DNA from: Betaproteobacteria bacterium
GTDB lineage: Bacteria > Pseudomonadota > Gammaproteobacteria > Burkholderiales > Rhodocyclaceae
Direction: 5' to 3'
DNA length: 64,000 bases
NCBI GenBank assembly: GCA_016194935.1
Contig: JACQAO010000068.1
Location: forward strand, 1 to 64,000
Positions 3,234 to 44,035 of this stretch are shown here, one piece after another. A program made the position numbers and the translations under genes. The notes under the pieces are model-generated. The model saw only the letters and a program-made list of their open reading frames with translations. It did not search any database and had not been told where the DNA came from. Within the stretch, counting starts at the first letter, position 1. The number at the start of each line of letters is the position of its first letter.

Positions 3234-3252
3234 GTCTTCTCCGCTTCCCGTT

Positions 3253-24411: not shown

Positions 24412-26466
24412 ATGAGCAGCCTGTCCGGATCCGGATTCCTCTCCATCGACTGGCTGCTGACGCTGATTGCCGCCTGGCTGCTGATCGGTTGCGCCGGCTT
24501 GCTGGCGCCGCGCCAACTGGGTTTCGTCGGTCGCACCCTGTATCCGCTCGGCGCGCTGGTCGGGCTGGCGCTGGCGGCAGTGGCCTTCGGCGCACTGGGT
24601 GAAACAGCGGAAGTCGCGGTGCTGCCGCTGGGTCTGCCCGATCTGCCGTTCCATCTGCGTCTCGACTCCCTCTCGGCCCTGTTCCTGCTGCTGCTCGGCG
24701 GCGCCAGTGCGGGCATCTCGATTTACGCTGCCGGCTACCTGCGCAAAGGCGAAGGCACCGCCCCCGGCCTGCAATGCCTTCAATACCACCTGTTCCTCGC
24801 CAGCATGGCGCTGGTGCTGCTGGCCGACGATGCCTACGTCTACATGGTGGCCTGGGAGTCGATGGCCTTGTCATCGTTCTTCCTGGTCACTTCGGATCAT
24901 CGCCTGCCGGAAATCCGCCGCGCCGGCTACCTATACCTGCTGATCGCCCACGTCGGCGCCATTGGCATCCTGCTGTCTTTCGGCGTGCTGCAAAGCGGCG
25001 GAGATCTGTCCATCTCGAATGGCGTCGCCGATTACACCTTCGCCCACATGCGCGCCATGCCGCACGACGCCTTCTGGGCCAGCGCCGCCTTCGGCCTGGC
25101 GCTGTTCGGTTTCGGCGCCAAGGCCGGGCTGCTGCCGCTGCACATCTGGCTGCCCGAAGCGCATCCGGCGGCGCCCTCACCGGTGTCGGCGATGATGAGT
25201 GGGGTGATGCTGAAGACCGCAATCTACGGCATGTTGCGGGTTTCTTTCGACCTGCTGCATCATCCTCTATGGTGGTGGGGCGTGCTGGTGCTGGCGCTGG
25301 GGCTGCTCACCGCGTTGTTCGGCGCGGTGTTCTCCGCCGTGCAAAGCGATATGAAACGCCTGCTGGCGTATTCCTCAATCGAGAATATCGGCCTGCTGTT
25401 CGTCGGCATCGGCCTGACGCTGACCTTCCAATCCTTCGGCATGAATGCGCTGGCGGTTCTGGCGCTGACCGCAGTCCTCTACCACTGTCTCAACCATGCC
25501 GCTTTCAAAAGCCTGCTGTTCCTGTGCACCGGCTCGGTGCTGCACGCCACCCGCGAGCGCAGCCTGGGCAAGCTCGGCGGGCTGATCCATCGCATGCCCT
25601 GGGTGGCATGGCTGGCGCTGCTCGGCGTGATCGCCGCTGCCGGCCTGCCGCCGCTGAACGGCTTCGTTTCAGAGTGGCTGCTGTTGCAAGCCTTCCTGTT
25701 CACTCCCAGCTTGCCGCACGCTTACATCAACATGCTGATCCCGGTGGCTGCCGCCGCCGTGGCGCTGACCGCCGCCCTCGCCGGTTTTGTCATGGTAAAG
25801 TTTTTCGGCATCGTCTTCCTCGGCCAGCCACGCGAGGAAAAAATTTCCCAGGCGCATGATGCAGGCTGGCTGGAGCGGCTGGGTCTGGTTTGGCTCGCCG
25901 CGCTGTGCGTACTGCTCGGGCTGTTCCCGGTCTACGTCATTGAAAAACTCGATTTCGTCACCCGCAGCCTGCTTGGCGTCGGCGTGTATCCGGCTGGCAA
26001 TAACACACCGCACGGCTGGCTGCTGCTGGCGCCAATCAGTGCCGACCGCGCCAGTTACGAACCGCTGGTATTCCTGTTGATGATAGGCGCCGTAATCACC
26101 GCCACCTATCTCATCGTGCACCGTTACTGGCATGGCCGGGCGCGCCGCAGCGCTGCATGGGATTGCGGCTTTCCGCTGCAAACCGCGCGCATGCAGGACA
26201 CCGCAGAAGGCTTCAGCCAACCGCTGCGCCAGGTGTTTGAACCTTTCTACCGGCAGACGCGCGAACTGCCCACTGCCTTTGACACGGCGCCGCGTTATCG
26301 CGTCGTCGTCGAGGATCACTTCTGGTACTGGCTCTACCTGCCGGTGGCGCGTGCCGCTGAATTCGGTGCGCGCTGCGTATCGTTTCTTCAGCAGGGACGC
26401 ATCTCGATCTACCTGCTGTACAGCTTCCTGACCCTGGTGGCGCTGCTGTTCCTGGTGCGCGGATGA
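24412..26466 (+). CDS. HyfB-like proton-translocating subunit (NuoL/antiporter family)
   Basis: A 684-residue membrane protein of the NuoL/NuoM/Mrp antiporter family with about 16 helices, most similar in layout to HyfB/HycC. The antiporter core motif region reads FGAKAGLLPLHIWLPEAHPAAPSPVSA (quoted here only for position, about residues 235-262 in pieces: KAGLLPLHIWLPEAHPA then APSPVSAMMSGV). The lysine of FGAKAG and histidines of WLPEAHPA are the family's proton-path residues. It opens a six-gene operon and overlaps the next gene by 4 bp (ATGA). Confidence 0.9.
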   Translation: MSSLSGSGFLSIDWLLTLIAAWLLIGCAGLLAPRQLGFVGRTLYPLGALVGLALAAVAFGALGETAEVAVLPLGLPDLPFHLRLDSLSALFLLLLGGASAGISIYAAGYLRKGEGTAPGLQCLQYHLFLASMALVLLADDAYVYMVAWESMALSSFFLVTSDHRLPEIRRAGYLYLLIAHVGAIGILLSFGVLQSGGDLSISNGVADYTFAHMRAMPHDAFWASAAFGLALFGFGAKAGLLPLHIWLPEAHPAAPSPVSAMMSGVMLKTAIYGMLRVSFDLLHHPLWWWGVLVLALGLLTALFGAVFSAVQSDMKRLLAYSSIENIGLLFVGIGLTLTFQSFGMNALAVLALTAVLYHCLNHAAFKSLLFLCTGSVLHATRERSLGKLGGLIHRMPWVAWLALLGVIAAAGLPPLNGFVSEWLLLQAFLFTPSLPHAYINMLIPVAAAAVALTAALAGFVMVKFFGIVFLGQPREEKISQAHDAGWLERLGLVWLAALCVLLGLFPVYVIEKLDFVTRSLLGVGVYPAGNNTPHGWLLLAPISADRASYEPLVFLLMIGAVITATYLIVHRYWHGRARRSAAWDCGFPLQTARMQDTAEGFSQPLRQVFEPFYRQTRELPTAFDTAPRYRVVVEDHFWYWLYLPVARAAEFGARCVSFLQQGRISIYLLYSFLTLVALLFLVRG

Positions 26467-27434
26467 TAGGCGATCGCATGGATATCCTGGCTCCCATCCT
26501 GTTGCAATTCCTCGAACTGCTCATGGCGCTGGCGCTGGCGCCGCTGTTGACCGGCTGGGTGAACCAGTGCCGCGCCTGGTTGCAGAACCGCAGCGCGCCG
26601 CCGCTGTTGCAGCCTTACCGCCAGCTCGCCAAACTGTTCGAGAAAGAAGTGGTGCTGGCGCACAACGCCTCCAGCCTGTTTCGCGCCGCGCCCTATGTCA
26701 TTTTTGCCTGCATGGCGCTGGCAGCCGCCATCGTGCCGACCCTCTCCACCGACCTGCCGTTCGGCCCTGCCGCAGACGCCATCGCCCTGGTCGGTATTTT
26801 CGCTCTGGCGCGGGTGTTCATCGCCCTGGCCGGCATGGATGTCGGCACCTCTTTTGGCAGCCTGGGCGCGCGGCGTGAAATGCTGATCGGATTCCTCGCC
26901 GAGCCGGCGCTGCTGATGGTGTTTTTCACCGCCTCGCTGATCTCGCAGTCGACTTCCCTGTCCACCATCGTCAGCACGCTGGCGCGCGGTGAGTTCACCA
27001 TCTATCCCTCACTGGCCTTTGCAGGTATCGCTTTCAGCATGGTGTCGCTGGCGGAAAACGCCCGCGTGCCGGTGGACAATCCCACCACCCATCTCGAACT
27101 CACCATGATCCACGAGGCGATGATCCTGGAATACTCCGGGCGTCACCTGGCGCTCATCGAATGGGCCGCCGCGCTCAAGCTCTACGCCTACTCCTGCCTC
27201 GGTCTGGCTTTGTTCTTCCCGTGGGGAATACCGCAAGCTGCGGAGTTCGCCAACCTGCCGGTAGCGCTGGCTGGACTGCTGTTCAAACTTGGTATTGGCG
27301 GCTTTTTGCTCGCCGTCATCGAGACCGTCAGCGCCAAGATGCGGATTTTTCGTGCGCCGGAATTCCTCGGCACCGCCTTCATGCTGGCGGTACTGGCGAT
27401 GCTGGTGCATCTGCTTCTGGAGACGGGCAAATGA
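26463..27434 (+). CDS. HyfC-like membrane subunit (NuoH/complex I subunit 1 family)
   Basis: 323 residues with about eight membrane helices, homologous to HyfC/HycD and NuoH, the subunit that connects the redox arm to the ion channels. The family motif YRQLAKLFEKE lies near residue 47 and ENARVPVDNPTTHLELTMIHE (in part) near 200, with conserved acidic residues. The start may be ATG 26463, which overlaps the hyfB stop, or ATG 26478 (MDILAPILL). Confidence 0.9.
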   Translation: MIGDRMDILAPILLQFLELLMALALAPLLTGWVNQCRAWLQNRSAPPLLQPYRQLAKLFEKEVVLAHNASSLFRAAPYVIFACMALAAAIVPTLSTDLPFGPAADAIALVGIFALARVFIALAGMDVGTSFGSLGARREMLIGFLAEPALLMVFFTASLISQSTSLSTIVSTLARGEFTIYPSLAFAGIAFSMVSLAENARVPVDNPTTHLELTMIHEAMILEYSGRHLALIEWAAALKLYAYSCLGLALFFPWGIPQAAEFANLPVALAGLLFKLGIGGFLLAVIETVSAKMRIFRAPEFLGTAFMLAVLAMLVHLLLETGK

Positions 27435-27441
27435 GAAACCC

Positions 27442-28101
27442 ATGAGCCACTATTACGGCCAGTTCATCAACCTGCTCGCCGCGATCCTGCTGTTGCTGTC
27501 TTTCGCCATGCTGGGGCAGCGGCGCATTCTTTCGCTGATCAATCTGTTCATGGCGCAGGGCGCGGTGCTGTGCGTATCGACCGCGACAGTGGCGTTTGTG
27601 ACCGGCCAGTCGCATCTCTACTGGTCGGCGCTGATTACTCTGCTGCTCAAGGTAATCCTGCTGCCCTGGATCCTGCACCGGCTGATCCGCCGCCTCAATG
27701 TGAAATGGGATATCGAAACACTCATCAATATTCCCACCACCATGCTGATTGGCATCGTCCTGGTGATCTTCTCCTTCAATCTGGCGCTGCCGATTTCTGA
27801 ACTGGCCGGCACCGTCACCCGGGCGACGCTGGGCATCGCCATTGCCGCCGTGCTGCTGGCTTTCCTGATGATGATCACGCGCTCCAAGGCGGTGCCGCAG
27901 GTGATCGGTTTTCTGGCGATGGAAAACGGCCTGTTCTTCGCCGCCACTTCCGCCACCTACGGCATGCCGATGGTGGTGGAACTGGGCATTGCCCTGGACG
28001 TGCTGGTCGGCATGGTGATCCTCGGGGTGTTCTTCTTCCAGATCCGCGAGCGCTTCGATTCGCTGGATATCCGGCACCTGGAACAGTTGAAGGAGGATTA
28101 G
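27442..28101 (+). CDS. HyfE-like membrane subunit
   Basis: 219 residues with about six or seven membrane helices. It matches HyfE, whose C-terminal half corresponds to NuoK-type subunits (PQVIGFLAMENGLFFAA carries a membrane-embedded glutamate). ATG 27442 lies 8 bp after hyfC; a longer frame running back into hyfC is a shadow. Its stop is followed two bases later by the TTG of the next gene. Confidence 0.87.
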   Translation: MSHYYGQFINLLAAILLLLSFAMLGQRRILSLINLFMAQGAVLCVSTATVAFVTGQSHLYWSALITLLLKVILLPWILHRLIRRLNVKWDIETLINIPTTMLIGIVLVIFSFNLALPISELAGTVTRATLGIAIAAVLLAFLMMITRSKAVPQVIGFLAMENGLFFAATSATYGMPMVVELGIALDVLVGMVILGVFFFQIRERFDSLDIRHLEQLKED

Positions 28102-28103
28102 CC

Positions 28104-29561
28104 TTGGAATTCCTCCTCGTCCTCGGCTTTCCCCTGCTCGGCGGCATCGCGCTGGCGCTGACCGGTCACTGGAAACGCGCCGCCGAGATCAACGCGGCGT
28201 TCAGCCTGCTTACCCTGCTCGCCGCCATCTTCCTCACCGTGAACGTCGTCGAGCACGGCCCGCAACTGCTGTATGACGAACAGATTTTCATCGACCCCCT
28301 GAATGTTTTCCTGGTGGCGCTGACGGCCTTCGTCGGCTTCACCACCTCGTTGTTCTCGCGCCCCTACATGCGTATCGAGCATCACCACGGACGCCTCACC
28401 ACGGGCCGTCTGCGGCTGTATCACAGCATGTTCCAACTGTTCATGTTCACCATGCTGCTGGCGCTGACCACCAACAATATGGGCATCCTGTGGGTGGCGA
28501 TGGAAGCGGCAACGCTGACCACGGTGCTGCTGGTCTCGCTCTACCGGACTGCTGCTTCACTGGAGGCGGCGTGGAAATATTTCATCCTGTGCGGCGTCGG
28601 CATTGCCCAAGCGCTGTTCGGCACCATCCTGCTGTTTTTTGCTGCCGAAAAAATTCTCGGCCACGAAGGCGGCGCGCTGTTATGGACGCACCTGGATGCG
28701 GTCAAGGGGCAACTCGAACCGGCGGTGATGTCCTTGGCATTCGTCTTCCTGCTGGTCGGTTATGGCGCCAAGGTCGGCCTGGCGCCGCTGCATAACTGGC
28801 TGCCCGATGCCCATGCCGAAGGCCCGACCCCTGTGTCGGCGGTGCTCTCCGGCCTGCTGCTGAATGTCGCGCTGTATGCGGTCTTGCGCTGCAAAGTGCT
28901 GGCCGACGGCGCGCTGCACAGCAGTCTGGCCGGCCTGCTGATGATGGGCTTCGGCCTGCTGTCGGTGGTAGTGGCGGCTTTCTTTCTGTCGCGCCAGAAG
29001 GACATCAAGCGGATGTTTGCCTATTCCTCAATTGAGCACATGGGCATCGTCACTTTCGCTTTCGGCATGGGCGGGCCGGTGGCGAATTTCGCCGGTCTTT
29101 TGCACATGACGGTACACAGCCTGACCAAGTCGGCGATATTTTTCGCCGTCGGCCACGCCACGCAAAAGAGCGGAACGCAATTGATGGAACACATTCGCGG
29201 CCTGATCAAGCTCAGCCCCACCATCGGCTGGGGGCTGATGCTCGGCACCCTGGCGATCCTCGGAATGCCGCCCTTCGGCGTGTTCGCCAGCGAATTCCTG
29301 ATCCTCACCACTGCAATGAAACAGCAGCCGTGGGCCACCCCTTTGCTGCTGATGGCGCTGGGCGTGGCTTTTGCCGCAATTTTCGGCAAGGTGCAGCCGA
29401 TGGTGTTCGGCGAAAGTGCGCCGGGGTCGCTGCGACTCCTGCCGCACAAACCAGCCATGCTGCCAGTGTTCATGCATCTGGGTCTGGTGCTGATGCTCGG
29501 CCTGTGGATACCTCCCTACCTGGCCGAGTGGTATCGTCAGGCAGCCAGGTTCATCGGATAA
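28104..29561 (+). CDS. HyfF-like proton-translocating subunit (NuoN/antiporter family)
   Basis: 485 residues, about 14 membrane helices, second antiporter-like subunit of the complex. The core motif is YGAKVGLAPLHNWLPDAHAE followed by GPTPVSAVLSGLLLN, with the ion-path lysine and histidines. A TTG start is supported by GAAGGAGGA eight bases upstream and by the tight spacing after hyfE. It resembles HyfF. Together with HyfB-like this gives the complex at least two ion channels. Confidence 0.9.
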   Translation: MEFLLVLGFPLLGGIALALTGHWKRAAEINAAFSLLTLLAAIFLTVNVVEHGPQLLYDEQIFIDPLNVFLVALTAFVGFTTSLFSRPYMRIEHHHGRLTTGRLRLYHSMFQLFMFTMLLALTTNNMGILWVAMEAATLTTVLLVSLYRTAASLEAAWKYFILCGVGIAQALFGTILLFFAAEKILGHEGGALLWTHLDAVKGQLEPAVMSLAFVFLLVGYGAKVGLAPLHNWLPDAHAEGPTPVSAVLSGLLLNVALYAVLRCKVLADGALHSSLAGLLMMGFGLLSVVVAAFFLSRQKDIKRMFAYSSIEHMGIVTFAFGMGGPVANFAGLLHMTVHSLTKSAIFFAVGHATQKSGTQLMEHIRGLIKLSPTIGWGLMLGTLAILGMPPFGVFASEFLILTTAMKQQPWATPLLLMALGVAFAAIFGKVQPMVFGESAPGSLRLLPHKPAMLPVFMHLGLVLMLGLWIPPYLAEWYRQAARFIG

Positions 29562-29564
29562 GCC

Positions 29565-31127
29565 ATGCGATTCCTCGACCAGAATCTGGAATTCACGCGC
29601 CTGCCCGGCGCACTGGAGTCTTTTCACGCCAACGCCGATGAAACCCAACTATCGGCCTTTGCCGCTGCGGTGAAGCAAACGGGCGGACGCTTCGTCGCGC
29701 TGTGGGGCAGTGACGAACGGAAACGGAATTCAAATGCTGGCGGCTACGCGGTGCATGTGGCGTTCGGCATCGCCGAAGGTCTGGCGCTGGTAACGCTGCC
29801 GATGCACGCAGAAAACCCCGAGTATCCCGATCTCTCAGAAATTTTTCCTGCGGCGAACCGCCTCCAGCGCACCTGCTTCGATCTGCTCGGCATCCGCGCC
29901 CGCGGCGGCGATCAGCGTCCCTGGCTGCGCCACGCCAACTGGCCTGCCGACTACTTCCCGCTGCGCCGCGATGTCGATGGCGCGCGGCAGTTCGAAGCGC
30001 ACAACGAGGACTATGCCTTCGTCCGCGTCGAGGGCGACGGCGTGCACGAGATTCCGGTCGGGCCGATCCACGCCGGCATCATCGAGCCTGGCCACTTCCG
30101 TTTTTCCATCGTCGGCGAAAAAGTCTTGCGCCTGGAACAGCGTCTCGGCTGGACCCACAAGGGCATCGAAAAGCGTTTCGAACAACTGCCGCTGGCCGAA
30201 GCCCACAAACTGGCCGGTCGTGTTTCCGGCGACTCGACCGTCGCCTTTGCCTGGGCTTACTGCCTCGCTGCGGAGTCGCTTGCCGCTTGCACTCCGCCGC
30301 CGCGGGCGCTGTGGCTGCGCGCCCTGCTGCTGGAGCGCGAGCGTGTCGCCAACCATCTCGGCGACCTCGGCGCTCTCGGCAACGACGCTGCGCTATCTTT
30401 CGGTCTCGCCCAGTTTCTGCGCCTCAAAGAAGACTGGCTGCGCCTGTCGGGCGAGCTGTTCGGGCATCGCTTCATGATGGACGCCATTGTCCCCGGCGGC
30501 GTCGCCCGCGACCTGCCCGGCGGCGCCAGCGAAAAAATCGCCCGTCAGTGCAATGCCATCGAGCGCGAAGTACGCATCCTCAAAAACATCTACGACGAAC
30601 ACGCCGGCTTGCAGGATCGCTTCCTCACCACCGGTCGACTGAATCCGGCTTTGGCTTCCGCGTTGAGCATCAGCGGACTGGCCGGTCGCGCCAGCAGCCA
30701 GGCCTGGGATCTGCGCACGCAATTTCCCATCACCCCCTACGACCAACTCGACGTGCGCATCGCCACGCATCGCAACGGCGATGTCGCCGCGCGCGTCACG
30801 CTGCGCTTCGAGGAAGTGTTCGAATCGCTGCGCTTGACCCGCATCATCCTGACGCAATTGCTGGAGAATAAAAGCACGGAGTATTTCGCCCCGCTCCCGG
30901 CAGCGCCGGACGGCGCATTCGGCCTGGGCTGGATCGAAGGCTGGCGCGGCGACGTGCTGGTGGCGCTGGAGGCTGGGCCGGCGGGCAGCATCCGCCGCTG
31001 CCATTGTCACGATTCCTCGACACGCACCTGGCCAGCGCTGGAACATGCCGTCATGGGCAACATCGTGCCGGATTTTCCGCTGATCAATAAATCCTTCAAC
31101 CTGTCCTACAGCGGACAGGATCTCTAA
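29565..31127 (+). CDS. HyfG/HycE-like large subunit lacking all [NiFe] ligand cysteines
   Basis: 520 residues: a NuoC-like N-terminal domain (about 1-140) and a NuoD/hydrogenase-large-like domain. The region GPIHAGIIEPGHFRF (167-180) is classic for this family. The first cysteine motif, RxCGxC in true hydrogenases, reads RVSGDS at 219-224. The C-terminal DPCxxC equivalent reads NLSYSG at 512-517. All four nickel-iron ligands are therefore Ser, Ser, Ser and Gly. Hydrogen chemistry is ruled out; the protein fits the Ehr (energy-converting hydrogenase-related) group between group 4 hydrogenases and complex I. The stop is followed by a hairpin-rich gap before the small subunit. Confidence 0.9.
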   Translation: MRFLDQNLEFTRLPGALESFHANADETQLSAFAAAVKQTGGRFVALWGSDERKRNSNAGGYAVHVAFGIAEGLALVTLPMHAENPEYPDLSEIFPAANRLQRTCFDLLGIRARGGDQRPWLRHANWPADYFPLRRDVDGARQFEAHNEDYAFVRVEGDGVHEIPVGPIHAGIIEPGHFRFSIVGEKVLRLEQRLGWTHKGIEKRFEQLPLAEAHKLAGRVSGDSTVAFAWAYCLAAESLAACTPPPRALWLRALLLERERVANHLGDLGALGNDAALSFGLAQFLRLKEDWLRLSGELFGHRFMMDAIVPGGVARDLPGGASEKIARQCNAIEREVRILKNIYDEHAGLQDRFLTTGRLNPALASALSISGLAGRASSQAWDLRTQFPITPYDQLDVRIATHRNGDVAARVTLRFEEVFESLRLTRIILTQLLENKSTEYFAPLPAAPDGAFGLGWIEGWRGDVLVALEAGPAGSIRRCHCHDSSTRTWPALEHAVMGNIVPDFPLINKSFNLSYSGQDL

Positions 31128-31205
31128 CTCGCATGGTCGCCAAGCTCTCCCCTGTGCCATGAAATCGTTCGAAGCAATAAACACCCGCCCCTCCCGTCCG
31201 TCCAC

Positions 31206-31289
31206 GGCAGGCTTTGCACAGCCTGCCGGCGTCGGCGGCGCGGAGCAGTGCTCCGCGAAACCCCGCCTTCGCCCCCTCACGGGGAGGCG
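31206..31289. repeat. Three adjacent hairpins in the large/small subunit gap
   Basis: Hairpin 1 has an 8-bp perfect stem (GGCAGGCT 31206-31213 with 31220-31227). Hairpin 2 has an 8-bp stem with a 3-base loop (CGCGGAGC 31239-31246 with 31250-31257). Hairpin 3 pairs CGCCT and CCCC (31264-31268, 31273-31276) with GGGGAGGCG at 31281-31289 around a small bulge. They fill much of a 235-bp gap inside an otherwise tightly packed operon. No T-run follows, so they look like a REP-type element or an mRNA processing site. Confidence 0.7.
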
Positions 31290-31362
31290 ACTAACTTGCT
31301 CGCTACGCTCGTCGGGTTACTCAGCGCTTAATTTCGCTATTTCACGTTAAACAGACCCGGCT

Positions 31363-31896
31363 ATGTACCAACTGCTCAAACAAATCCTCGTCACCGGTAT
31401 CAAAACCGAAGCGCCGCCCGTCGCCGACGATGCCTTGCGTGTCACGACGCAACGGCTGGAGCAGGCGATGCTGAAAACGTTAGGCCGGGCGCTGGTGATC
31501 CGGCATATCGACGCCGGCTCCTGCAACGGCTGCGAGCTGGAGATTCATGCGCTCGGCAATCCTTATTACAACCTGGAAGCGCTGGGCATCAGGTTCGCCG
31601 CCAGTCCCCGCCACGCCGACCTGTTGCTGGTCACCGGCCCGGTTGCCAGCAATATGGTTGTCGCCCTGCAACGCGCCTACGAAGCCACCCCGGCGCCCAA
31701 GCTGGTGGTGGCGGTGGGCGACTGCGGCTGCAATACTGGCAACTGCGCTGGCAACAGCGGTGGCATTTTCGGCGAGAGCTACGCCAGTCGCGGCAAAGTT
31801 GCCAATGTCATTCCGGTGGATGTGGCAGTACCCGGTTGCCCGCCGACGCCGCTGGCGCTGATGCAGGGCATCCTCACCGCAATCAGTGGAAAGTAA
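31363..31896 (+). CDS. HyfI/NuoB-like small subunit with one [4Fe-4S] site
   Basis: 177 residues homologous to HyfI/HycG and NuoB. Unlike the large subunit it keeps its cluster ligands: Cys54 and Cys57 (CNGCE), Cys121 (GDC) and Cys159 (PGCPPTP), enough for the proximal/N2-type cluster. The segment CGCNTGNC adds two extra cysteines close to the third ligand. It is the last subunit gene of the operon. No HyfH/NuoI-type ferredoxin subunit is encoded nearby, so how electrons reach this cluster is open. Confidence 0.9.
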   Translation: MYQLLKQILVTGIKTEAPPVADDALRVTTQRLEQAMLKTLGRALVIRHIDAGSCNGCELEIHALGNPYYNLEALGIRFAASPRHADLLLVTGPVASNMVVALQRAYEATPAPKLVVAVGDCGCNTGNCAGNSGGIFGESYASRGKVANVIPVDVAVPGCPPTPLALMQGILTAISGK

Positions 31897-34803: not shown

Positions 34804-35127
34804 ATGAAAAGTCTGACAATATTTTCCATCCTGGGCCTGGCCGCGCTTTCCGCAAGCGCAGTGGCTGGCGAGGATAAAATTCAACTCAAGCATGGCCCTG
34901 GAAGTGAGCTGGTGGCAGCCCATTGCGTCATGTGCCACAGCCTGGACATGATTCAGATCAACTCGCCGTTCTTGAAGCGCGGGCAATGGGAAGCGACCGT
35001 CACCAAGATGAAAAAAGTCATGGGTGCGCCGATCAACGATGAGGATACCGCCAAGATCGTCGACTACCTGACCAAATACTACGGGGCGGAAACACCTCCA
35101 GCACCCCCGGCTGCGGCGAAAAACTAG
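34804..35127 (+). CDS. sorB: Sulfite dehydrogenase cytochrome c subunit SorB
   Basis: 107 residues with a Sec signal (cleavage after ASA-VAG near residue 22) and one haem c site CVMCH at residues 41-45. A methionine-containing helix (MKKVMGAPI) gives a candidate sixth ligand. Size and position directly behind the molybdenum subunit, 11 bp after its stop, match SorB, the electron acceptor of SorA. The Pro/Ala-rich tail is unremarkable. The stop overlaps that of the convergent DUF3501 gene by 4 bp. Confidence 0.9.
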   Translation: MKSLTIFSILGLAALSASAVAGEDKIQLKHGPGSELVAAHCVMCHSLDMIQINSPFLKRGQWEATVTKMKKVMGAPINDEDTAKIVDYLTKYYGAETPPAPPAAAKN

Positions 35128-35705
35128 GCCAGATCGGCGACCAGCGTTTCTCTGGTCGCATCAGGCACTTCCAGGCTGACTGTGTAGTTGGGATGGTCGA
35201 CGCCCATGCCGATGGCCTGGCCGGACTTGGCGGCGGCTACCATCGCGGGGGTGAGCTCGAAGCGCAGAAAATGCACTGCGGAAGTCTTGTCGGCGGTGGT
35301 GCGCTCCAGGTCTTCGTCGGCAATCGCAAACACTTTGTCATGCCCGGCGACGCGCACCCATATTTTGTCTTCCACATTTAACAGACGCGCCAGCTCGACC
35401 CGGCGCTGCGCTTCGTCGGGATATTCGATCAGCATGGTGGCTTTCCAATTCGCGCCGTCCGGTACCAGCGGCCCGTAGACGCTGATTTCGTCCTGGATGC
35501 CCTGTTCCTCGAAAATTTTCTCGATGCGCAGCATTTCCTGTATCTGATAACGCACCGTCTGTTCGTCCTCGAACAGCAAGTTGATATGTTCACCGAGGGC
35601 CACACTGCGCAAGCGGCGGTGGGGAATGATCTTTGCGCGCAGCGCCGGGCGCTCCCGCGCATAAGCTTCGAGCGACATGAGACTGTCGCGGGTAATCTTG
35701 CTCAC
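35124..35705 (-). CDS. DUF3501 family protein
   Basis: 193 residues with the typical DUF3501 start (LMSLEAYARERPALRAKII in part) and LLFEDEQTVRYQIQEMLRIE. Function unknown. In many proteobacteria it is the third gene of a conserved set behind rubrerythrin and a CCG-type iron-sulfur protein, exactly as here. That linkage suggests a joint role in handling oxidants or in an electron-transfer reaction; no catalytic motif is evident. Confidence 0.88.
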   Translation of the reverse strand: MSKITRDSLMSLEAYARERPALRAKIIPHRRLRSVALGEHINLLFEDEQTVRYQIQEMLRIEKIFEEQGIQDEISVYGPLVPDGANWKATMLIEYPDEAQRRVELARLLNVEDKIWVRVAGHDKVFAIADEDLERTTADKTSAVHFLRFELTPAMVAAAKSGQAIGMGVDHPNYTVSLEVPDATRETLVADLA

Positions 35706-35733
35706 GTATTTCTCCTGAATGGTTTCAAGCTGC

Positions 35734-37071
35734 TTAAATTCCGTAGGCCAACCGCACCAGGGTCAGCGGGTGGTGCTTTTGCGCCGTGCCGACGCTGCCC
35801 GCCTCGGTCATGCCTTGCTGGATGTGGCGGCCAGCGATGGCGCAATCCGAGCTGATGTAGTCCGGTTGGTCTTTGCTCATCGCCGTGAACACCGGCTTGC
35901 CGATTTTCATTGACATCGCGTAGTACTCGCTCTTGACGCCCCAGGTGCCGTCATGACCGGAACAGCGTTCCACGGTGTTGACCTGGGCGCCGGTCATTTT
36001 CAGCACTTCCTCTGTCTTGCGACCGATGTTCTGCACCCGCGAGTGACAGGGAATGTGATAGCTGATCCTGCCTAATGGATGCTTGAAATCGGTCTTGAGC
36101 AAGCCGTCCTTGCCGCGCAGCACCAGGTATTCGAAAGGGTCGGCCATGGCTTTGGAAACCGCCGCGACATCGGCGTCAGCGGGGAACAGCAGGGGCAGTT
36201 CTGACTTGAACATCAGCGTACAGGACGGCACCGGGGTGAGAATCGCATAGCCTTCCCGCGCCAGTTGCGCCAGCAGCGGGATGTTTTTTTCCTTGTTGCG
36301 GGCGACGGCATCCAGGTCGCCCAGCTCGAGCTTGGGCATGCCGCAGCAAGCCTCTTTCTCGACGATGACATGGGGAATTTCGTTGTGGTCGAGAATCGCC
36401 ACAAGGTCGTGGCCGATGCCCGGCTCGTTGTAGTTCACATAGCAGGTGGAAAAAATCGCCACCTTGCCAAGCGTGCGCGCGCCGTTTTTAACCGGGTGGG
36501 CGCGGCTCTGCGCCACGGTCTTGCGGAAATGTGCGCTGTCGTACTCGGGCAGCCAGCGCTCTTTTTTCACGCCGATAACGGACTCCATCACGGCGCGCGC
36601 CGGACCCAACTTGTTGGCGGCATTCACCACCTGCACCACCACCGGGATCGATGCCAGCTTGCCCAGCGCATCGGTCGAGGACAGCAGCTTGTCGCGCAGG
36701 CGCACCTTGCCCTGCTTGAATTTGACAGCCTTGGCGCGCAGCATGGTGTGTGGAAAATCCAGATTCCACGGATGCGGCGGCACATACGGACACTTGGTCA
36801 TGTAGCACAGGTCGCAGAGATAGCACTGATCCACGACCTTTTGAAAATCCTGGTGAGCCACGCCGTCGACCTCGCCGCTGGCGCTCTCGTCCACCAGATC
36901 AAACAGAGTGGGGAAAGCATTGCACAACGACACGCAGCGGCGGCAGCCGTGGCAGATGTCGAAAATGCGTTCCAGTTCCTGGTTGCAGGCGGCCTCGTCG
37001 TAATACGCTTCCGTCCGCCAGGGAATGGCGTGGCGGGTCGGTGCTTCGAGATTGCCTTCGCGCGTGCTCAT
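35734..37071 (-). CDS. Iron-sulfur protein with two [4Fe-4S] motifs and CCG domains (GlpC/HdrD-like)
   Basis: 445 residues. Two ferredoxin-type cysteine clusters occupy 40-50 (CHGCRRCVSLC) and 83-94 (CYLCDLCYMTKC). Two CCG-type domains follow, with CCGMPKLELGD around 240 and CSGHDGTWG in the last quarter. This is the architecture of the GlpC and HdrD families, which pass electrons between quinones or thiol/disulfide partners. It is the middle gene of the rubrerythrin/Fe-S/DUF3501 operon. No signal peptide, so cytoplasmic or membrane-associated. The donor and acceptor are unknown. Confidence 0.88.
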   Translation of the reverse strand: MSTREGNLEAPTRHAIPWRTEAYYDEAACNQELERIFDICHGCRRCVSLCNAFPTLFDLVDESASGEVDGVAHQDFQKVVDQCYLCDLCYMTKCPYVPPHPWNLDFPHTMLRAKAVKFKQGKVRLRDKLLSSTDALGKLASIPVVVQVVNAANKLGPARAVMESVIGVKKERWLPEYDSAHFRKTVAQSRAHPVKNGARTLGKVAIFSTCYVNYNEPGIGHDLVAILDHNEIPHVIVEKEACCGMPKLELGDLDAVARNKEKNIPLLAQLAREGYAILTPVPSCTLMFKSELPLLFPADADVAAVSKAMADPFEYLVLRGKDGLLKTDFKHPLGRISYHIPCHSRVQNIGRKTEEVLKMTGAQVNTVERCSGHDGTWGVKSEYYAMSMKIGKPVFTAMSKDQPDYISSDCAIAGRHIQQGMTEAGSVGTAQKHHPLTLVRLAYGI

Positions 37072-37109
37072 GGGAGATTATTCCGGCAAAATATAGAACG
37101 CGAGACGGT

Positions 37110-37145
37110 CCGGATTCCGCCAGGCGCCAGCCCGGCGGAATCCGG
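37110..37145 (-). other. 12-bp perfect hairpin between the rubrerythrin and Fe-S genes
   Basis: CCGGATTCCGCC (37110-37121) and its exact reverse complement (37134-37145) enclose a 12-base loop. On the transcribed strand it follows the rubrerythrin stop by 12 bases. No run of T follows directly, so it is more likely a stability, processing or partial attenuation element than a full terminator. Confidence 0.7.
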
Positions 37146-37157
37146 CATTCATCCCGC

Positions 37158-37577
37158 TCAGTCGGTCAGTTGGTCGATGGCCTTTTGATAGCGGTTGGCG
37201 TGGGAACGCTCCGCCTTCGCCAGGGTCTCGAACCAGTCGGCGATTTCACCGAAACCTTCTTCGCGCGCTGCTTTTGCCATGCCCGGATACATGTCGGTGT
37301 ATTCGTGCGTCTCGCCGGCGACGGCAGCCTTCAGGTTATTGCGGGTGGAGCCGATGGGCAGGCCGGTGGCCGGGTCGCCGACGGTTTCCAGGTATTCCAG
37401 ATGCCCGTGAGCATGCCCGGTCTCTCCTTCAGCGGTGGAACGGAACAGCGCGGCCACGTCGTTCTGGCCTTCGATATCGGCCTTGTTGGCGAAATACAGA
37501 TAGCGGCGATTCGCCTGGGATTCGCCGGCAAAGGCGGCCTTCAGATTGCCTTCAGTCTTGGATCCTTTGAGTTGCAT
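37158..37577 (-). CDS. Rubrerythrin without rubredoxin domain
   Basis: 139 residues of the ferritin-like rubrerythrin family, which reduces peroxide at a di-iron site. Di-iron ligands are visible in [39 protein letters not shown] and AERSHANRY. There is no cysteine, so the C-terminal rubredoxin domain of classical rubrerythrin is absent and electrons must come from a partner. ATG 37577 is chosen because GGAG sits about six bases upstream; ATG 37583 abuts it. It heads the Fe-S/DUF3501 operon. Confidence 0.92.
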
Positions 37578-37809
37578 AATCATCTCCTTGTCAGTTAACA
37601 CTATCAAGCACCATTCCCGTTTAAACAGGAATGTCTGAATCCTACCCGGGGCAATCCAAGCAATCCAATTGATTATGGCAATACTTCTCATAGTTGCCGG
37701 CTATCCGGCTGTCCGGCTTTCCCTTCTATCTGGCGCAACCTGCCGGTGAGTTGTAAACTAATATTGCTTCAGTTTTCATCATGCGCCACACAACTCAAGG
37801 AGAAGCCAC

Positions 37810-38436: not shown

Positions 38437-40917
38437 TCAAGTCTGGTAGCGGCGTGACTTGAACGAGGTGGTCTTGCGGAAATGATCCCCGCCGCCGATG
38501 CGGCGGATATCCGCCCAGGTCCCTTTGTAGTAGGGGATGATGTTGCGATCCGTCCATTCGGTGACCACATCGCCGGCAATTCCGTTTTGTCCGCCAAACT
38601 GCATGAAGGTATGGCCGCGCTTGATGGCGGCGTCGGGATAAGCCATCGCGTAGGTAGCGCCGTAGTCGTTGTGCAATTCGACGATGTCGCCGGGCCGGAC
38701 GCCGAGATCTTTTGCATCCTGCGGGTTCATCTCGATCACCGACATGGGATAACGATCCCTGACGTTCGGATCGTATTTGTTGTGATAGCCCGTTTGCCAA
38801 ACTTCGTTGATACGCCCCTGGTTGATGTAGTAGCGGTACTTGTCTTTCTGCACCATCACCGGCTTCGGCAAGCCCGGCCAGGGGGAAGGCAGGAAATGGG
38901 CTTTGCCGTCCTGGGTGTCGAACTTGTAGTCGGTATAGATCATCGGCGTGCCGATGAACTTGCCGTCCTTGTATTCCTTGATCGGCAATTGCACGCCGTT
39001 GTTCCCCGCCTCGCGCAAGCGCTGGTAAGTGGCGAGGTAGCCGGTGCCGCCGCCCTGGCTGTCAATCGGGCCGGCGCCGGGTTGTCCGGCGCGGCGGAAG
39101 CCGTCGTTGAAGGCGTCTTCCTCGCTTTTCCAGTCGAAGCCGGAGAATCTGGCCACCATGCCTGCATTGCCTTCCTTCTGGTACATCGCCTTGAAGGTGG
39201 TGGCGATGTCGGCGGCAATCAGGCTGTCGGCTTTGGCGACGCCCGGCGCGTCCATGAACTTTTCCGATAGACGCAAGCGACGCTCGCCATTCATCGAGGT
39301 CAGGTTGATTTCCCCCGGATGCGCGGCAGGGAAGGCCACCAGCGCCGCATCCATGATCATGGTTGGATAAAGGTCGATCAGGGTAACGAACAACCCGCCT
39401 TTGTTCATCACCGCATCGACGATGGTATCGACGATCTGCCCGGTGGTTCCCCCCCGGACTTTGCGCAACGCATCCTTGACGATTTCGGAGCGGCGCAAGA
39501 CAGCGTTGCGGTACTGCTCGGCGTTCAAAGTCGTCTGAAAAGAGTTGCAGCCCCAGAAGGTCAAGGTGCGGCCACGGCCCTGGATGATTTCCTGGTCGAC
39601 ATAGATCTTGCCTTTGCCCGGATACGGGGGACGCGTGTAGCCTTCCTGGTGTCCGCCCATGCGCACACAGCCGGTGCCGCGCCGGCCTACATTGTGGGTG
39701 GCGATGACCAGATCGAGCAGGGCCGACTGGATCAGATAATTGTCATTGCCCCAGATGATGCCTTTCTCGTAGGTATGCACGGTGCGCTTCATCACGCCAG
39801 CCGCCTTGGGTTTGTAAGCCCATTCGGCGAACTGCCGGAGTTTTTCCACCGGCACGCCGGTGATCCTGCTGCACTCGGCCAGACTCATGCGATTGGCGGT
39901 CACTGCGGCATCAAAACCCGCGGTGTGCTGAGCGATGAAGTCCTTGTCTATCCAGCCCTGCTCCACGACATAGCTGAAGACTCCGTTGAACAACGCGATA
40001 TCGGTGCCAGGTTCGATCTCAAGATGCAACAACTTGTCCTTGCCTACCGCCGTCTCGATGATGGTCATGGTTGCCGTGCGGCGCGGATCGATACAAACGA
40101 TGCGGGTCTCCGGATGCGGTTCGTTGGGAAACCACTGCTGCTTCTTGTCCTTGGTGGCGCCCTGGAGATTGGGCAGCAGATGCACCAGAAAATAATTGGT
40201 CTGCGTCTCGTACTGATTGGCGCCGACGGAAACGATACAGTCGGCCACTTCGGAATCTTCATACGAGTTGTTGAGTTCGCCGATGCCCATATCGCGGGTG
40301 GCATGGCACTCGGAGTTATACGCAGGCCGGTTGTGAATGCGCACCAGGGGCGTCTGGAGGGCAGTAAACATCAGCTTGCCGGTACCCCAGGTATTTTCGA
40401 AACCACCGCCTGCGCCGCCGTGATCGAAGCAGTTGAAGCCCAGCCCGCCGGGGCCTTCCTGGTCGAGAATTTTCTTGTGTACGCCGACGTAGATCGCCAG
40501 CGCCTGCTCCCAGGTGGTGTCCAGCCATTGGTCACCGGTATACAGCTTGGGGTAGGCCAGGCGCTCCTTGGTCAGTCCTTCGGGCTGATACATGTACGAG
40601 GCCATCTTACCGCCGCGCGTGGACGACAAGCCTTGATTGACGACACACTCCTTGTCGGGAACGATCATGATGTTGTAGCGCTTGCCGTCACGATCCTGGA
40701 TCACATTGGTCATTGCCGGCGTCAGGCAGGCTTGCAGCGGCGGGACTTGTTTGCGGAAATCCAGGCCGAGCGCATTCTGATTCGGTGCGCGACCGCCCTC
40801 CTCGCTCTCGGGCCACTTGTAGGCGTGGTAGCCGCAGCCGACGATGCAAAAGTGGCAGGTCATATTGGTCTTCTGCGCTGTCACCGGGGGCAGCGCTACA
40901 CGATCTTTCTTTGCCAT
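38437..40917 (-). CDS. aioA: Arsenite oxidase large subunit AioA
   Basis: An 826-residue molybdopterin enzyme that oxidises arsenite to arsenate in the periplasm. The [3Fe-4S] ligands Cys21, Cys24 and Cys28 stand in CHFCIVGC, with Ser99 in the position that replaces a fourth cysteine. The substrate-funnel residues known from the Alcaligenes enzyme occur at identical numbers: His195, Glu203, Arg419 and His423. There is no signal peptide; it is exported together with the Tat-bearing AioB. It follows aioB by 21 bp and is closed by a terminator. Confidence 0.98.
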
Positions 40918-40938
40918 GTCACTCTCCTTATTCTGTTT

Positions 40939-41451
40939 CTAAATCAGGTTCGATTGACGGCCGTAGATCAGGCCGTTGACGGAAACCGCAGTCACCGTAT
41001 CGTTTTTTTCGTTGTACTTGAGCGTGATTTGCGGCAGGTTTTCCGTCGCCTGGCCGCACACCATTTGCCCGCCCATCTCAGCATCGAACACGCTGTAATG
41101 ACATCCGCAGCGGAACGTCAAAGTACGTTGATCGTAGTTCACCGGGCAGCCCATGTGGGTGCACAGCGTGGAGTAGGCGACGATGTCTCCCTCCGGCCCC
41201 ACACCGCCCGGAACTTCACGTCCCATCTTGACCAGGGTGCAAGGCGACTGTTCATCCGGGAAAGTGAAACTGAGCGGGCTGTTAGGCTTGAGGCCCCTGG
41301 CCTTGGTCAGCGCTTTGGGTTTGTAAGGCAGTGTGGTGCGGCCCGCATCCGCAGTAGCCGCCGCCTGGGCGGTGGCTGCCCCCATCGCTGCGGCACTGGC
41401 GGCGACTCCACTGGAGATTTTCAGAAAGCCCCGGCGACTTAGTTTTTCCAT
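40939..41451 (-). CDS. aioB: Arsenite oxidase Rieske subunit AioB
   Basis: 170 residues. The twin-arginine signal is [10 protein letters not shown], with cleavage after the TAQA region near residue 30, and it carries the complex to the periplasm. The Rieske [2Fe-2S] motifs are CTHMGC and CGCHYS; both extra cysteines of the stabilising disulfide are present, as in betaproteobacterial enzymes and unlike some alphaproteobacterial ones. It takes electrons from AioA and passes them to cytochrome c or azurin. First gene of the operon, about 30 nt behind a sigma-54 promoter. Confidence 0.97.
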
Positions 41452-41490
41452 TTTTTCCTCCTCAAGTTAATTACTTCAGCTTTTACCAAG

Positions 41491-41507
41491 AGCAATGGCT
41501 GTGCCTA
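41491..41507 (-). promoter_or_regulatory. Sigma-54 (-24/-12) promoter of aioBA
   Basis: Reading leftward the sequence is TAGGCACAGCCATTGCT. It fits the consensus TGGCAC-N5-TTGCW with GG and GC separated by exactly 10 bases. Transcription would start near 41480, about 30 nt before the aioB ATG. The neighbouring AioR is a sigma-54 activator with an intact GAFTGA loop, which supports the call. The remainder of the aioB-aioX gap (to 41720) shows no obvious promoter for aioXSR. Confidence 0.85.
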
Positions 41508-41720
41508 TGAGCAAATCCCTGCTGTTATTGCATCGCCGAGGTGAGTGCGCCGCCCATGCGTTACCGTCAAGTAAGCTGTTGCAGCGCACCACGTTACCGG
41601 TTCGTAACATCCGGCGCGCGCGCCCGCCGGCCAAGCGTTGCCGATATGCGTGCGGCGCTTGCCTGCCGCCCCGGCAGGGTCGACAATGCCATTCCTCTTT
41701 TGCGGAACCTGCTTTCGAAT

Positions 41721-42578
41721 ATGCATCGCCGTCATTTCCTGCAAATGCTTTCCGGCGCTGCCGCCATGCCTTTGACTGGCAGCGTGCATGGCGAACCAGC
41801 GACGCTGCGCATCGGCCTGACGCCGGTGTTTCTCGATGACCAACTGGATTTCCTCAAGCAGTTGAACGCTTATTTCGCGCGCCGCTCGGGCAGGCCGGTG
41901 AGTTTCATCCAGCGCGGCAGCTATCGTGAAATCAATGAGCTGATACTGGGCGGCAAGCTGGATTTCGCCTGGATCTGCGGCTACCCCTACGTCAGCCACC
42001 GGCGCGACATGCGGCTGCTGGCGGTACCCGTGTATCACGGCAAGCCGCTCTACCAGTCCTACCTGATCGTACCCAAAAGCGACAGCGATACCCGATACTT
42101 CACCGATCTGCGCGGCAAGATTTACGCCTATTCCGACCCGGATTCGAATTCAGGATTTCTCTATCCGCAGTACTCGTTGTTGCGCGCCGGCGAAAACCCC
42201 ACCACCTTTTTTTCGCGCACCTTCTTCACCTGGGCGCACCGCAAGGTGGTCGTGGCGGTCGGCGTCGGCCTGGCTCAGGGCGGGTCGGTGGACGGCTATG
42301 TGTATGACACCCTGGCCCTGGTCCATCCTGAATTGACTGCGGCCACGCGGGTCGCGCACCGCTCGCCGCTGTTCGGACACACGCCTTTCGTCGCCCGGCA
42401 CGACATACCGGAGCGCGATTTCCGCAGCATGCAAGGCATCCTGGTTTCAATGCGCGACGATCAGGAAGGTGCACAACTGCTGCGCTCGCTGAACCTGGAC
42501 GGCTTCACCCCCGGTGACGACCATCTCTACGACAGCATCGCCGCAATGGCGCGCACCCTGGCGGAAAGCCGCAGATGA
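41721..42578 (+). CDS. aioX: Arsenite-sensing periplasmic protein AioX
   Basis: 285 residues of the PhnD-like periplasmic binding family. A signal (HRRHFLQMLSGAAAM, cleavage near residue 25) directs export. The single cysteine of the protein, Cys86 in WICGYPY, corresponds to the cysteine implicated in As(III) binding in AioX. It relays arsenite presence to the sensor kinase AioS. ATG 41721 is the natural start because the signal peptide begins there; the longer frame is not supported. It overlaps aioS by 4 bp. Confidence 0.93.
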   Translation: MHRRHFLQMLSGAAAMPLTGSVHGEPATLRIGLTPVFLDDQLDFLKQLNAYFARRSGRPVSFIQRGSYREINELILGGKLDFAWICGYPYVSHRRDMRLLAVPVYHGKPLYQSYLIVPKSDSDTRYFTDLRGKIYAYSDPDSNSGFLYPQYSLLRAGENPTTFFSRTFFTWAHRKVVVAVGVGLAQGGSVDGYVYDTLALVHPELTAATRVAHRSPLFGHTPFVARHDIPERDFRSMQGILVSMRDDQEGAQLLRSLNLDGFTPGDDHLYDSIAAMARTLAESRR

Positions 42579-44035
42579 GATTTAACCGGCTGGACGATCT
42601 CAGCCTGCGCTACAAGATACCCTTGCGGGTCATCGCCCTGGTGCTGGTGACTGCATTCTGCGTTACGGCCTCGATGGTCTTCCGCGAATATGACGAATCG
42701 CGCCGCGACCTGGTGGCGCACGCCGCCGGGCTGGGCCGGGTGCTGGCCGACACGTTGACGGCGCCGATGGTGCACGACGATCTGTGGCGCGCCTACGAAG
42801 TGGTACGCACCCCGCAACTGCACAACAACAGCGATTTCGAGACGCTTTCCGTCGCCAGCGTGGTGGTACTGGATACCGGCTTCCGCACCTTCGTGTCGAC
42901 GCAGCCGATCCGCTATCCATTGGGACTCAACCCGGCGCACAAGGAAACCGATTTCGCCTATATGCAGCATGCACTGGCTACAGGCGAGGCCACTGCGCAG
43001 CGCCTGATTGAGCCGCCCGCTTCAGATCACCTCTACGTGGTGACGCCGATCATTGCCGAAGGGGTGCTGCTCGGCCATCTCGCGCTGGGATATTCGCGGC
43101 AGGTGTTCGCTCCCCGCTTGCGCAACCTGATAGCCCGTTCGGCTCTGGTCACGCTGCTGGTACTGACGGTGCTGCTGCCGCTGTCAACCTGGTGGGCGCG
43201 GCGGCTGGCCGATCCGCTGGTGGCGCTGGCTGCGGCGATGGACCAGGTGGCCGAACGCCTGCCGGATCCCACTGCTGTGCCGATACCCTCCACCGGCGAT
43301 GAAATCGGCCACCTTGCACAAGCTTTTCGCGGCATGCTGGTGGGTTTGCACGAAAAGGCGCAACTGGAGCAACACATGCTGGTTGCCGAACGATTGGCCG
43401 CTGTGGGTCGGCTCTCCGCCGGCATCGCGCATGAAATCAACAACCCGTTGGGCGGCATGCTCAACGCTTTGAACACTCTGCGCCGCCACGGTGCGCCCGA
43501 TGCGCTGACGGAGAAAACGCTATCGCTGCTGGAACGGGGATTGACCCAGGTTCGCAATACCGTCGCCGCGCTGCTGGTCGAAGCCAAGGTAGAGAACCAC
43601 CCGCTGACGTCGCAGGACATCGAGGACATCCACATTCTGGTGATGGCGGCGGCGCAGAAAAAAACCGCCGATTTCGTCTGGCGCAACCGGCTTGACGCGC
43701 CGCTGCCGCTGCCCTCGACCCTGGTGCGTCAGGTACTGCTCAACCTGCTGCTGAATGCAGTGCAGGCCATTGATGCAAGTGGCCGCGTCGAGTGCGATAC
43801 GCACGTCGAAAACCAGCGGCTGGTGATTCTGGTGGAGAATGACGGCAAGCATATTCCAGCAGACCATCTGCCCTATCTGTTCGAGCCATTCGCTACCGAG
43901 CGGTCGGAAGGCAGCGGCCTCGGCCTGTGGGTGACTTACCAGATCGTGCAACAACTCCAGGGATCGGTGGAAGTCGACTCGCAACCCGGCCTGACCCGCT
44001 TTGTCATCGAACTGCCTTTGCCGGAATCCGCATGA
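42575..44035 (+). CDS. aioS: Arsenite-responsive sensor histidine kinase AioS
   Basis: 486 residues: membrane helices at about 17-35 and 183-203 flank a periplasmic sensor domain of about 150 residues. A HAMP-like linker precedes the kinase core. The phospho-accepting histidine lies in GIAHEINNPLGG. The ATP-binding N-box is NLLLNAVQA and the G-box GSGLGLWV. Both overlaps (4 bp with aioX and 4 bp with aioR) show an operon. It would read the AioX signal and phosphorylate AioR. Confidence 0.94.
   Translation: MRFNRLDDLSLRYKIPLRVIALVLVTAFCVTASMVFREYDESRRDLVAHAAGLGRVLADTLTAPMVHDDLWRAYEVVRTPQLHNNSDFETLSVASVVVLDTGFRTFVSTQPIRYPLGLNPAHKETDFAYMQHALATGEATAQRLIEPPASDHLYVVTPIIAEGVLLGHLALGYSRQVFAPRLRNLIARSALVTLLVLTVLLPLSTWWARRLADPLVALAAAMDQVAERLPDPTAVPIPSTGDEIGHLAQAFRGMLVGLHEKAQLEQHMLVAERLAAVGRLSAGIAHEINNPLGGMLNALNTLRRHGAPDALTEKTLSLLERGLTQVRNTVAALLVEAKVENHPLTSQDIEDIHILVMAAAQKKTADFVWRNRLDAPLPLPSTLVRQVLLNLLLNAVQAIDASGRVECDTHVENQRLVILVENDGKHIPADHLPYLFEPFATERSEGSGLGLWVTYQIVQQLQGSVEVDSQPGLTRFVIELPLPESA

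Follow-up and report, generated by a model that had tools for sequence, protein, structure and literature searches.

A nickel-ligand-free Ehr complex in a Rhodocyclaceae genome and a possible role of its relatives in inorganic-carbon uptake

Ehr complexes have reportedly been described by Coppi (2005) and Marreiros (2013). Ehr is presented as a relative of group 4 hydrogenases without nickel ligands and of unknown function (PMC6349859, PMC10284858, PMC12342949), a description given as late as 2023 and 2025 (PMC10284858 and PMC12342949). The genes have been named ehrABCDLS (PMC6688271). For Acidithiobacillus, the motifs SGD[TS][TS][AV][GA]Y and NLSYSGHDL were printed in 2018, in a paper that also notes a lack of growth of A. 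thiooxidans on H2 (PMC6002666), and the hyfBCEFGI genes of A. ferrooxidans were classed as non-hydrogenase, with no group 4 subunit detected on H2 (PMC7735108). Here, we describe an Ehr locus in a stretch of 64,000 nucleotides from a Betaproteobacteria bacterium of the Rhodocyclaceae (assembly GCA_016194935.1, contig JACQAO010000068.1, positions 1 to 64,000), hereafter called the window. Six consecutive plus-strand genes at 24412-31896 encode a complex that is almost certainly Ehr (ehrABCDLS). We propose that Ehr is an ion-moving partner of inorganic-carbon uptake, a reading suggested by gene neighborhoods in part of the family and one to which we assign a probability of about one half.

The large subunit EhrL (29565-31127, plus strand, 520 residues) is HycE/NuoCD-like and combines a NuoC-like (PF00329) with a NuoD-like (PF00346) domain. 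Where RxCGxC is expected it reads RVSGDS (30219-30236, residues 219-224), and where DPCxxC is expected it reads NLSYSG (31098-31115, residues 512-517), three residues before the end of the protein. In the alignment these motifs occupy the positions of RVCGIC and DPCYSC in E. coli HycE/HyfG, and none of the four nickel-binding cysteines of group 4 [NiFe] hydrogenases is present (0/4), as a first-pass annotation of the window had stated. Few relatives retain even one. Across the Ehr-class alignment of 98 rows, 97 of which show each EhrL motif, the first cysteine position of the first motif holds Ser in 83 rows, Ala in 7 and Cys in 7, and the second holds Ser in 82, Thr in 13, Ala in 1 and Cys in 1; at the C-terminal motif the corresponding positions hold Ser (85), Ala (6), Asn (5) or Cys (1), and Gly (96) or Ala (1). 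The surroundings are conserved as well: S221, G222, D223, N508, K509, S510, N512, S514, Y515 and G517 are invariant among 18 EhrL rows, and in a 49-row alignment D223 remains invariant while G222, N508, K509, S510, N512, Y515 and G517 are conserved in at least 90%. Because the replacement residues are conserved, the motif change is more than chance and does not reflect decay. EhrL ends at the C-terminal motif in all 97 rows that reach it, whereas 32 residues follow DPCxxC in the four hydrogenases compared (two from E. coli, two from relatives); EhrL has no C-terminal extension of the kind removed in hydrogenase maturation. Ehr is a known family, of which the window copy is a new member, and the cysteine loss itself has already been published: since the Acidithiobacillus motifs were printed in 2018, the novelty does not lie there.

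The small subunit EhrS (31363-31896, plus strand, 177 residues; PF01058, 1.3e-27) keeps the cysteines of an N2-type cluster. It carries SCNGCE, GDC and PGCPP, in agreement with the first-pass annotation, and the four cluster-cysteine columns contain Cys wherever they are filled (98/98, 98/98, 97/97 and 96/96). An insertion, NTGNCAGN (31732-31755, plus strand), adds a cysteine after GDCGC and is the longest at that site among 98 rows (one row of length 14; three rows with a shorter insertion). We considered that the extra cysteine might serve a second cluster and rejected this, given that the insertion is almost private to the window's row. Between ehrL and ehrS lies a spacer of 235 bp with palindromes (31128-31362, plus strand), compared with gaps of 0 to 135 bp in nine other loci; within it, the palindrome spanning 31206-31227 and 40 bases at 31250-31289 each occur once in the window. 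Two further columns of EhrL are informative, namely those corresponding to the quinone positions His38 and Tyr87 of T. thermophilus complex I. In the 96 Ehr rows filled at both, the first is Ile throughout and the second is Gly in 95 and Ala in one; in 32 NuoD-class rows, the same columns hold His and Tyr in 29, neither in one and a gap in two.

The class assignment is further supported by phylogeny. A tree of 62 rows, rooted at its midpoint, gathers the Ehr sequences in a separate clade on the HycE/HyfG side, apart from NuoD and beside rather than inside the HycE/HyfG rows. The window EhrL falls within a 29-row set of cysteine-less members, in a tree that includes no experimentally named Ehr sequence and whose details are unsure because several branches are long. 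Motifs, gene set and tree together bear out the Ehr identity and non-hydrogenase status put forward at first pass. By sequence, the best PDB match of EhrL is HycE (7z0s_E, 9.6e-93). The predicted model (mean pLDDT 82.9; below 50 for residues 150-198 and the C-terminal motif) likewise resembles HycE most (Z 38.2, root mean square deviation 2.9, 475 aligned residues), followed by E. coli NuoCD (Z 34.5, 3.5, 474 aligned); Foldseek and VIA-align comparisons are taken as likeness only, and nothing is excluded by them. Because of these two low-pLDDT segments, the cavity cannot be read from the model.

Several relatives carry variants of this arrangement. Directly before one Ehr cluster lies an Ehr-like large subunit that has four nickel cysteines (RICGVC, ELCYSC) and no C-terminal extension (L072:677-2587); it branches near the base of the tree at an open fork, and its small-subunit open reading frame (ORF; 2289-3428) contains a degenerate ferredoxin-like stretch. 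It is possibly an intermediate between hydrogenase and Ehr. One genome carries two back-to-back Ehr clusters (L145:1484-16320), as is also seen for L037 with L041, and the clusters of the second type have the sequence NKSVNGSYSGHDL. A Piscinibacter caeni record (L097:2-2720) has a further complex ahead of Ehr; its large subunit reads TIAGDTS/FDLSYCGNDL, and a neighboring ORF has one 4Fe-4S motif. An EhrL relative of 59.7% identity is present in a plasmid record of Cupriavidus necator N-1.

The four membrane subunits (24412-29561, all plus strand) lie upstream of ehrL, beyond the interval covered by the first-pass annotation. The HyfB-like antiporter-type subunit (24412-26466, 684 residues) matches NCBIfam PRK06521, hydrogenase 4 subunit B, with 880 bits (cut-off 667), as well as PF00361, and conserves E149, K237 and other charged residues in a 78-row alignment. 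It is followed by a HyfC/NuoH-like subunit (26463-27434, 323 residues; PF00146, 3.7e-37) and a HyfE-like subunit (27442-28101). The latter has no Pfam match and reaches NCBIfam PRK11492 at 3.6e-25 and 89 bits, under the cut-off of 136 (queried from 27436); relatives occur at other Ehr loci, and its ORF has a mechanical TTG start at 27289 and the start MSHYYG at about 27442. The HyfF-like antiporter-type subunit (28104-29561, 485 residues) matches NCBIfam hydrogenase 4 subunit F with 880 bits (cut-off 543), and E134, K223, K264 and E397 are conserved in 89 rows. Ion movement driven by a redox partner other than hydrogen had been proposed at first pass. The ion movement is probable; its dependence on such a partner is possible, and the quinone His/Tyr pair of complex I is missing too.

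No recurring electron-donor gene was found beside Ehr in the loci compared. The absence of a HyfH/NuoI-type subunit, noted at first pass, holds for the window ORFs of at least 60 residues (very cysteine-rich ones left out) as judged by CxxCxxCxxxC spacing: the sole ORF with this spacing (35737-37077, minus strand) encodes a different sort of protein, and a HyfH/NuoI-type subunit with such spacing is thus missing from the window. That ORF, with the motif CHGCRRCVSLC, belongs to a gene pair at 35124-37691 that presumably encodes a rubrerythrin-like protein and an Fe-S protein. Across 97 Ehr loci (flanks totaling about 280 + 430 kb, up to 6 kb a side, other cysteine spacings not searched), no ORF with two 4Fe-4S motifs adjoins Ehr, and the sole plausible one is 3.1 kb away (L073); ORFs with one such motif lie near Ehr in L045 and L097. 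In contrast, a two-motif ORF was present in all five group 4 hydrogenase loci inspected (L032, L034, L055, L056 and L142). The suggestion that an unusual donor protein might be encoded nearby found no backing, as no seventh gene recurs in these 97 loci, 76 of which show all six subunits at the cut-offs used. The commonest true neighbors are metG (17 loci), a spermine-synthase-like gene (14) and SulP (13), and no other true family exceeds 17 loci; a neighbor cluster found at 22 loci was discounted, its members being ORFs antisense to the large subunit. The window's own Ehr genes are flanked by metG on one side and an acylphosphatase gene on the other; metG, here and at the 17 loci, is a name that we assume from the sequence.

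The neighborhoods of relatives point to inorganic carbon. We took an even sample of 200 genomes from the order, each at least 90% complete and the window's own among them, and called Ehr at a 480-bit cut and RuBisCO at E<1e-95. Ehr is present in 52 of them, in two as fragments. In 15 of these 52, belonging to six families, a gene for a SulP anion transporter lies within 16 kb of EhrL, whereas 1.0 would be expected under uniform placement and the maximum in 200,000 simulations was 7. RuBisCO is present in all 15. SulP occurs in 38 of the Ehr genomes, and the two are linked in 15/26 of those with RuBisCO and in 0/12 of those without (p=0.0008). In 16 regions from 14 of these genomes, SulP is a recurrent neighbor; nine of the regions have a sigma-54 two-component pair, and seven have a 186-residue gamma carbonic anhydrase. 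The best PDB matches of the latter are dGCA1, the carbonic anhydrase 1thj and CcmM, and its nearest NCBIfam models, CcmM and carbonic anhydrase, are both under cut-off. Among 80 named loci, SulP relatives occur in nine, a gamma carbonic anhydrase in one (L101) and a CsoSCA-like protein in one. The CsoSCA-like gene adjoins ehrS on the same strand in Thiobacillus L095 and on the opposite strand in G038 and G160; in Pfam the G038 protein scores 30.8 bits (cut-off 21.5), and PDB matches to the CsoSCA-like protein are 6e-5 or weaker. The gene order is SulP, Ehr, CsoSCA-like, GGDEF, CbbR-like, cbbL in G038 and SulP, Ehr, CsoSCA-like, CbbR-like in L095, the CbbR-like genes having CbbR as their best model, under its cut-off. 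A SulP of A. ferrooxidans has been predicted to carry bicarbonate (PMC6458275).

In one genus, the place of Ehr beside these genes appears to be taken by DAB, whose DAB2 form has been described as a vectorial carbonic anhydrase that is coupled to the membrane potential and indispensable for taking up CO2 (PMC13144422). Genome G192 has the order SulP, SulP, gamma carbonic anhydrase, SulP, regulators, SulP, Ehr. Its congeners G127 and G221 have no Ehr and carry an enlarged DAB locus (L169-L172) with the order SulP, gamma carbonic anhydrase, SulP, dabB-like, DabA, followed by three further NuoL/M-like genes; their gamma carbonic anhydrases share 91 and 94% identity with the G192 protein. Two gene families upstream in G127 and G221 also flank SulP at Ehr loci within the same taxonomic family (L156, L166), and the downstream sides differ. 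We compared 31 insertion-type SulP genes from genomes that have Ehr or DabA. Ehr is close to 10 of them (from 8 genomes), DabA to 7 and RuBisCO to 8; 21 have at least one of the three nearby, 10 have none, and 0 have both Ehr and DabA.

At the level of whole genomes, RuBisCO accompanies Ehr in 36/52 genomes compared with 38/148 others (p=4e-8). It is likewise associated with DabA (24/41 vs 50/159, p=0.002) and with the gamma carbonic anhydrase gene (23/74 vs 8/126, p=8e-6), and the latter is commoner with Ehr overall (14/52 vs 17/148, p=0.013). Outside the order, Ehr has been reported in about half of Nitrospirales genomes (PMC12342949).

Based on these observations, we hypothesized how Ehr could work. 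EhrL and EhrS would be incapable of handling H2, and a redox or proton reaction at these subunits would instead be coupled to ion movement through membrane subunits that retain conserved charged residues, like the subunits of ion pumps. In autotrophic relatives, Ehr together with SulP bicarbonate-type transporters and carbonic anhydrases would accumulate inorganic carbon, by analogy with NDH-1MS, which is electron-driven, or DAB, which is driven by an ion gradient. NDH-1MS is a cyanobacterial system (the name also appears in PMC13144422). Because the EhrS cluster cysteines are fully conserved, we favor an input in which a soluble carrier of low potential would dock on EhrS and donate electrons, although we consider an electron-driven version of the carbon role unlikely as such. 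For RuBisCO-bearing relatives, the carbon role seems somewhat more likely than not. For the window's own copy it is somewhat doubtful: with the same architecture, this copy may have the same role or a heterotrophic variant of it serving carboxylation or pH. Still tentatively, Ehr may be a third complex I-like machine for inorganic-carbon uptake beside NDH-1MS and DAB, working with SulP and gamma-type or CsoSCA-like carbonic anhydrases and exchangeable with DAB.

A number of observations weigh against a carbon role. No SulP lies within 16 kb in 37 of the 52 Ehr genomes, one more (G180) being linked across a contig end, and RuBisCO is missing in 16 of the 52; in the fetched Ehr flanks it appears in one genome only, G038. 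None of the six Nitrospirota loci (L132-L137) has a SulP of these types, and on a Paraburkholderia plasmid a spermidine synthase gene stands upstream of Ehr in SulP's place. The SulP-Ehr clusters also contain TauE, GGDEF and two-component genes, and SulP can carry sulfate. The controls, NuoD-SulP (0/25) and HypD-SulP (0/34), are weak, as less than one chance hit is expected and 3 and 9 genomes, respectively, have no SulP. Ehr is associated with HypD too (34/52 vs 32/148), and among genomes without HypD it shows no significant association with RuBisCO (5/18 vs 23/116, p=0.53), so a lithoautotrophic lifestyle may explain part of the pattern. Within RuBisCO-bearing genomes, the gamma carbonic anhydrase is about as frequent with Ehr (12/36) as in the others (11/38, p=0.80), and the avoidance between Ehr and DabA reaches merely p=0.085. 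All of these counts treat genomes as independent, which they are not, and the SulP test was framed after the neighbors had been seen. The window's own assembly, which is 90.4% complete, yielded no RuBisCO, gamma carbonic anhydrase, DabA (E<=1e-30) or HypD (E<=1e-60), and its two SulP genes and one beta-carbonic anhydrase gene are on contigs other than that of Ehr.

Other explanations account for some of these features. Ehr could be a general respiratory pump, passing electrons from a low-potential donor through EhrS to a quinone or another acceptor in EhrL, its neighbors then merely reflecting lithoautotroph gene islands. Charge translocation by Ehr has been proposed before (PMC6349859), and such a pump would suit the conserved membrane charges, the conserved EhrS cysteines and the Ehr genomes without RuBisCO. 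It fits less well with the missing quinone His/Tyr pair and with the lack of a recurring donor gene in 97 loci, where the nearest two-cluster ferredoxin ORF is 3.1 kb off (L073); nor does it predict the SulP linkage or the presence of DAB beside the same SulP and gamma carbonic anhydrase, and we regard it as unlikely. An ion antiporter or pH-homeostasis device with no redox function would need only the two antiporter-type subunits, and ehrABCDLS has indeed been listed among genes possibly serving pH homeostasis (PMC6688271), yet the invariant EhrS cluster cysteines and the conserved EhrL cavity motifs would then go unexplained, which makes this quite improbable.

A formate dehydrogenase could in principle supply the electrons, as PMC6349859 proposes in general and PMC6002666 for an fdh-mhy cluster of Acidithiobacillus; in A. 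caldus, a formate dehydrogenase lies upstream of the core hyf genes, a few genes away (PMC3826726). Since no neighbor family exceeds 17 of the 97 loci, and the neighbor representatives scanned, all from shared clusters, are not formate dehydrogenases, we find this very unlikely. Least credible of all is a decayed or cryptic hydrogenase that binds nickel through other residues or obtains its cysteines from another gene. With the tree rooted at its midpoint, Ehr lies on the side of the hydrogenases, and 7/97 rows keep the first cysteine; both points speak for it. However, the replacement residues are conserved, the maturation extension is lacking, and no seventh gene or other separate gene supplying the cysteine motifs was found in the 97 loci. 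Neither outcome named at first pass as contrary to its reading, a tree position inside true hydrogenases or a separate source of the cysteine motifs, was therefore observed. HypD, in addition to being undetected in the window's assembly, has no match in 18 of the 52 Ehr genomes, and a dependence of Ehr on Hyp proteins was rejected on this count.

Two further observations concern the window's genome. The possibility that it lacks complex I was considered and rejected: nuo genes are present on contig C68, where nuoF is cut at the contig end (L058), and behind it follow NuoL/M/N-like, NuoH-like and two-cluster NuoI-like ORFs. The assembly gives a single PF00346 hit, nuoD and the other upstream nuo genes being missing because C68 ends inside nuoF. 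In the window, positions 38437-45378 contain two adjacent subunit genes (the large one at 38437-40917), followed by genes for a periplasmic binding protein, a histidine kinase and a sigma-54 regulator, which we take to be arsenite oxidase genes with an AioXSR-like set.

Inorganic-carbon uptake was not considered in the first-pass annotation; it is suggested by part of the relatives' neighborhoods, that is, by gene content and order, and is a supported hypothesis for part of the family. In the literature as far as its text was available, we found no paper ascribing such a role to Ehr and no published account of the Ehr-SulP-carbonic anhydrase clustering in relatives. The nearest prior remark is that hyfBCEFG clusters of A. 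caldus co-occur with carbon-fixation genes, once beside a beta-carbonic anhydrase gene, where hyf was read as an H2-evolving hydrogenase aiding pH and CO2 homeostasis (PMC3826726). If true, a carbon role would account for genes labeled 'hydrogenase 4' in organisms that make no use of H2 and would supply a missing CO2-concentrating component for many chemolithoautotrophs. Ehr is common across the order, and its neighborhoods turn 'function unknown' into a directly testable proposal.

Compared with known systems, the complex shares antiporter-type subunits with DAB and NDH-1MS. It differs from DAB in that DabA (PF10070) is in none of the window's six genes, and from both in that no carbonic anhydrase subunit has been shown for Ehr itself. 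With complex I it has in common the NuoCD fold, the NuoC and NuoD domains and the antiporter and NuoH-like subunits, whereas its six-gene set has no NADH module and EhrL has Ile/Gly at the quinone His/Tyr positions. The E. coli hydrogenases 3 (HycE) and 4 have the same kinds of subunits, and HycE is the nearest structure; the nickel cysteines, the C-terminal extension and the two-cluster subunits of the E. coli loci are not in the window. The agreement is closest with Ehr, with which the window locus shares the six-gene set, the vanished nickel motifs, the retained small-subunit cluster and the absence of a ferredoxin-type subunit; it departs from Ehr in nothing basic, only in the 235-bp ehrL-ehrS spacer and the small insertion in EhrS.

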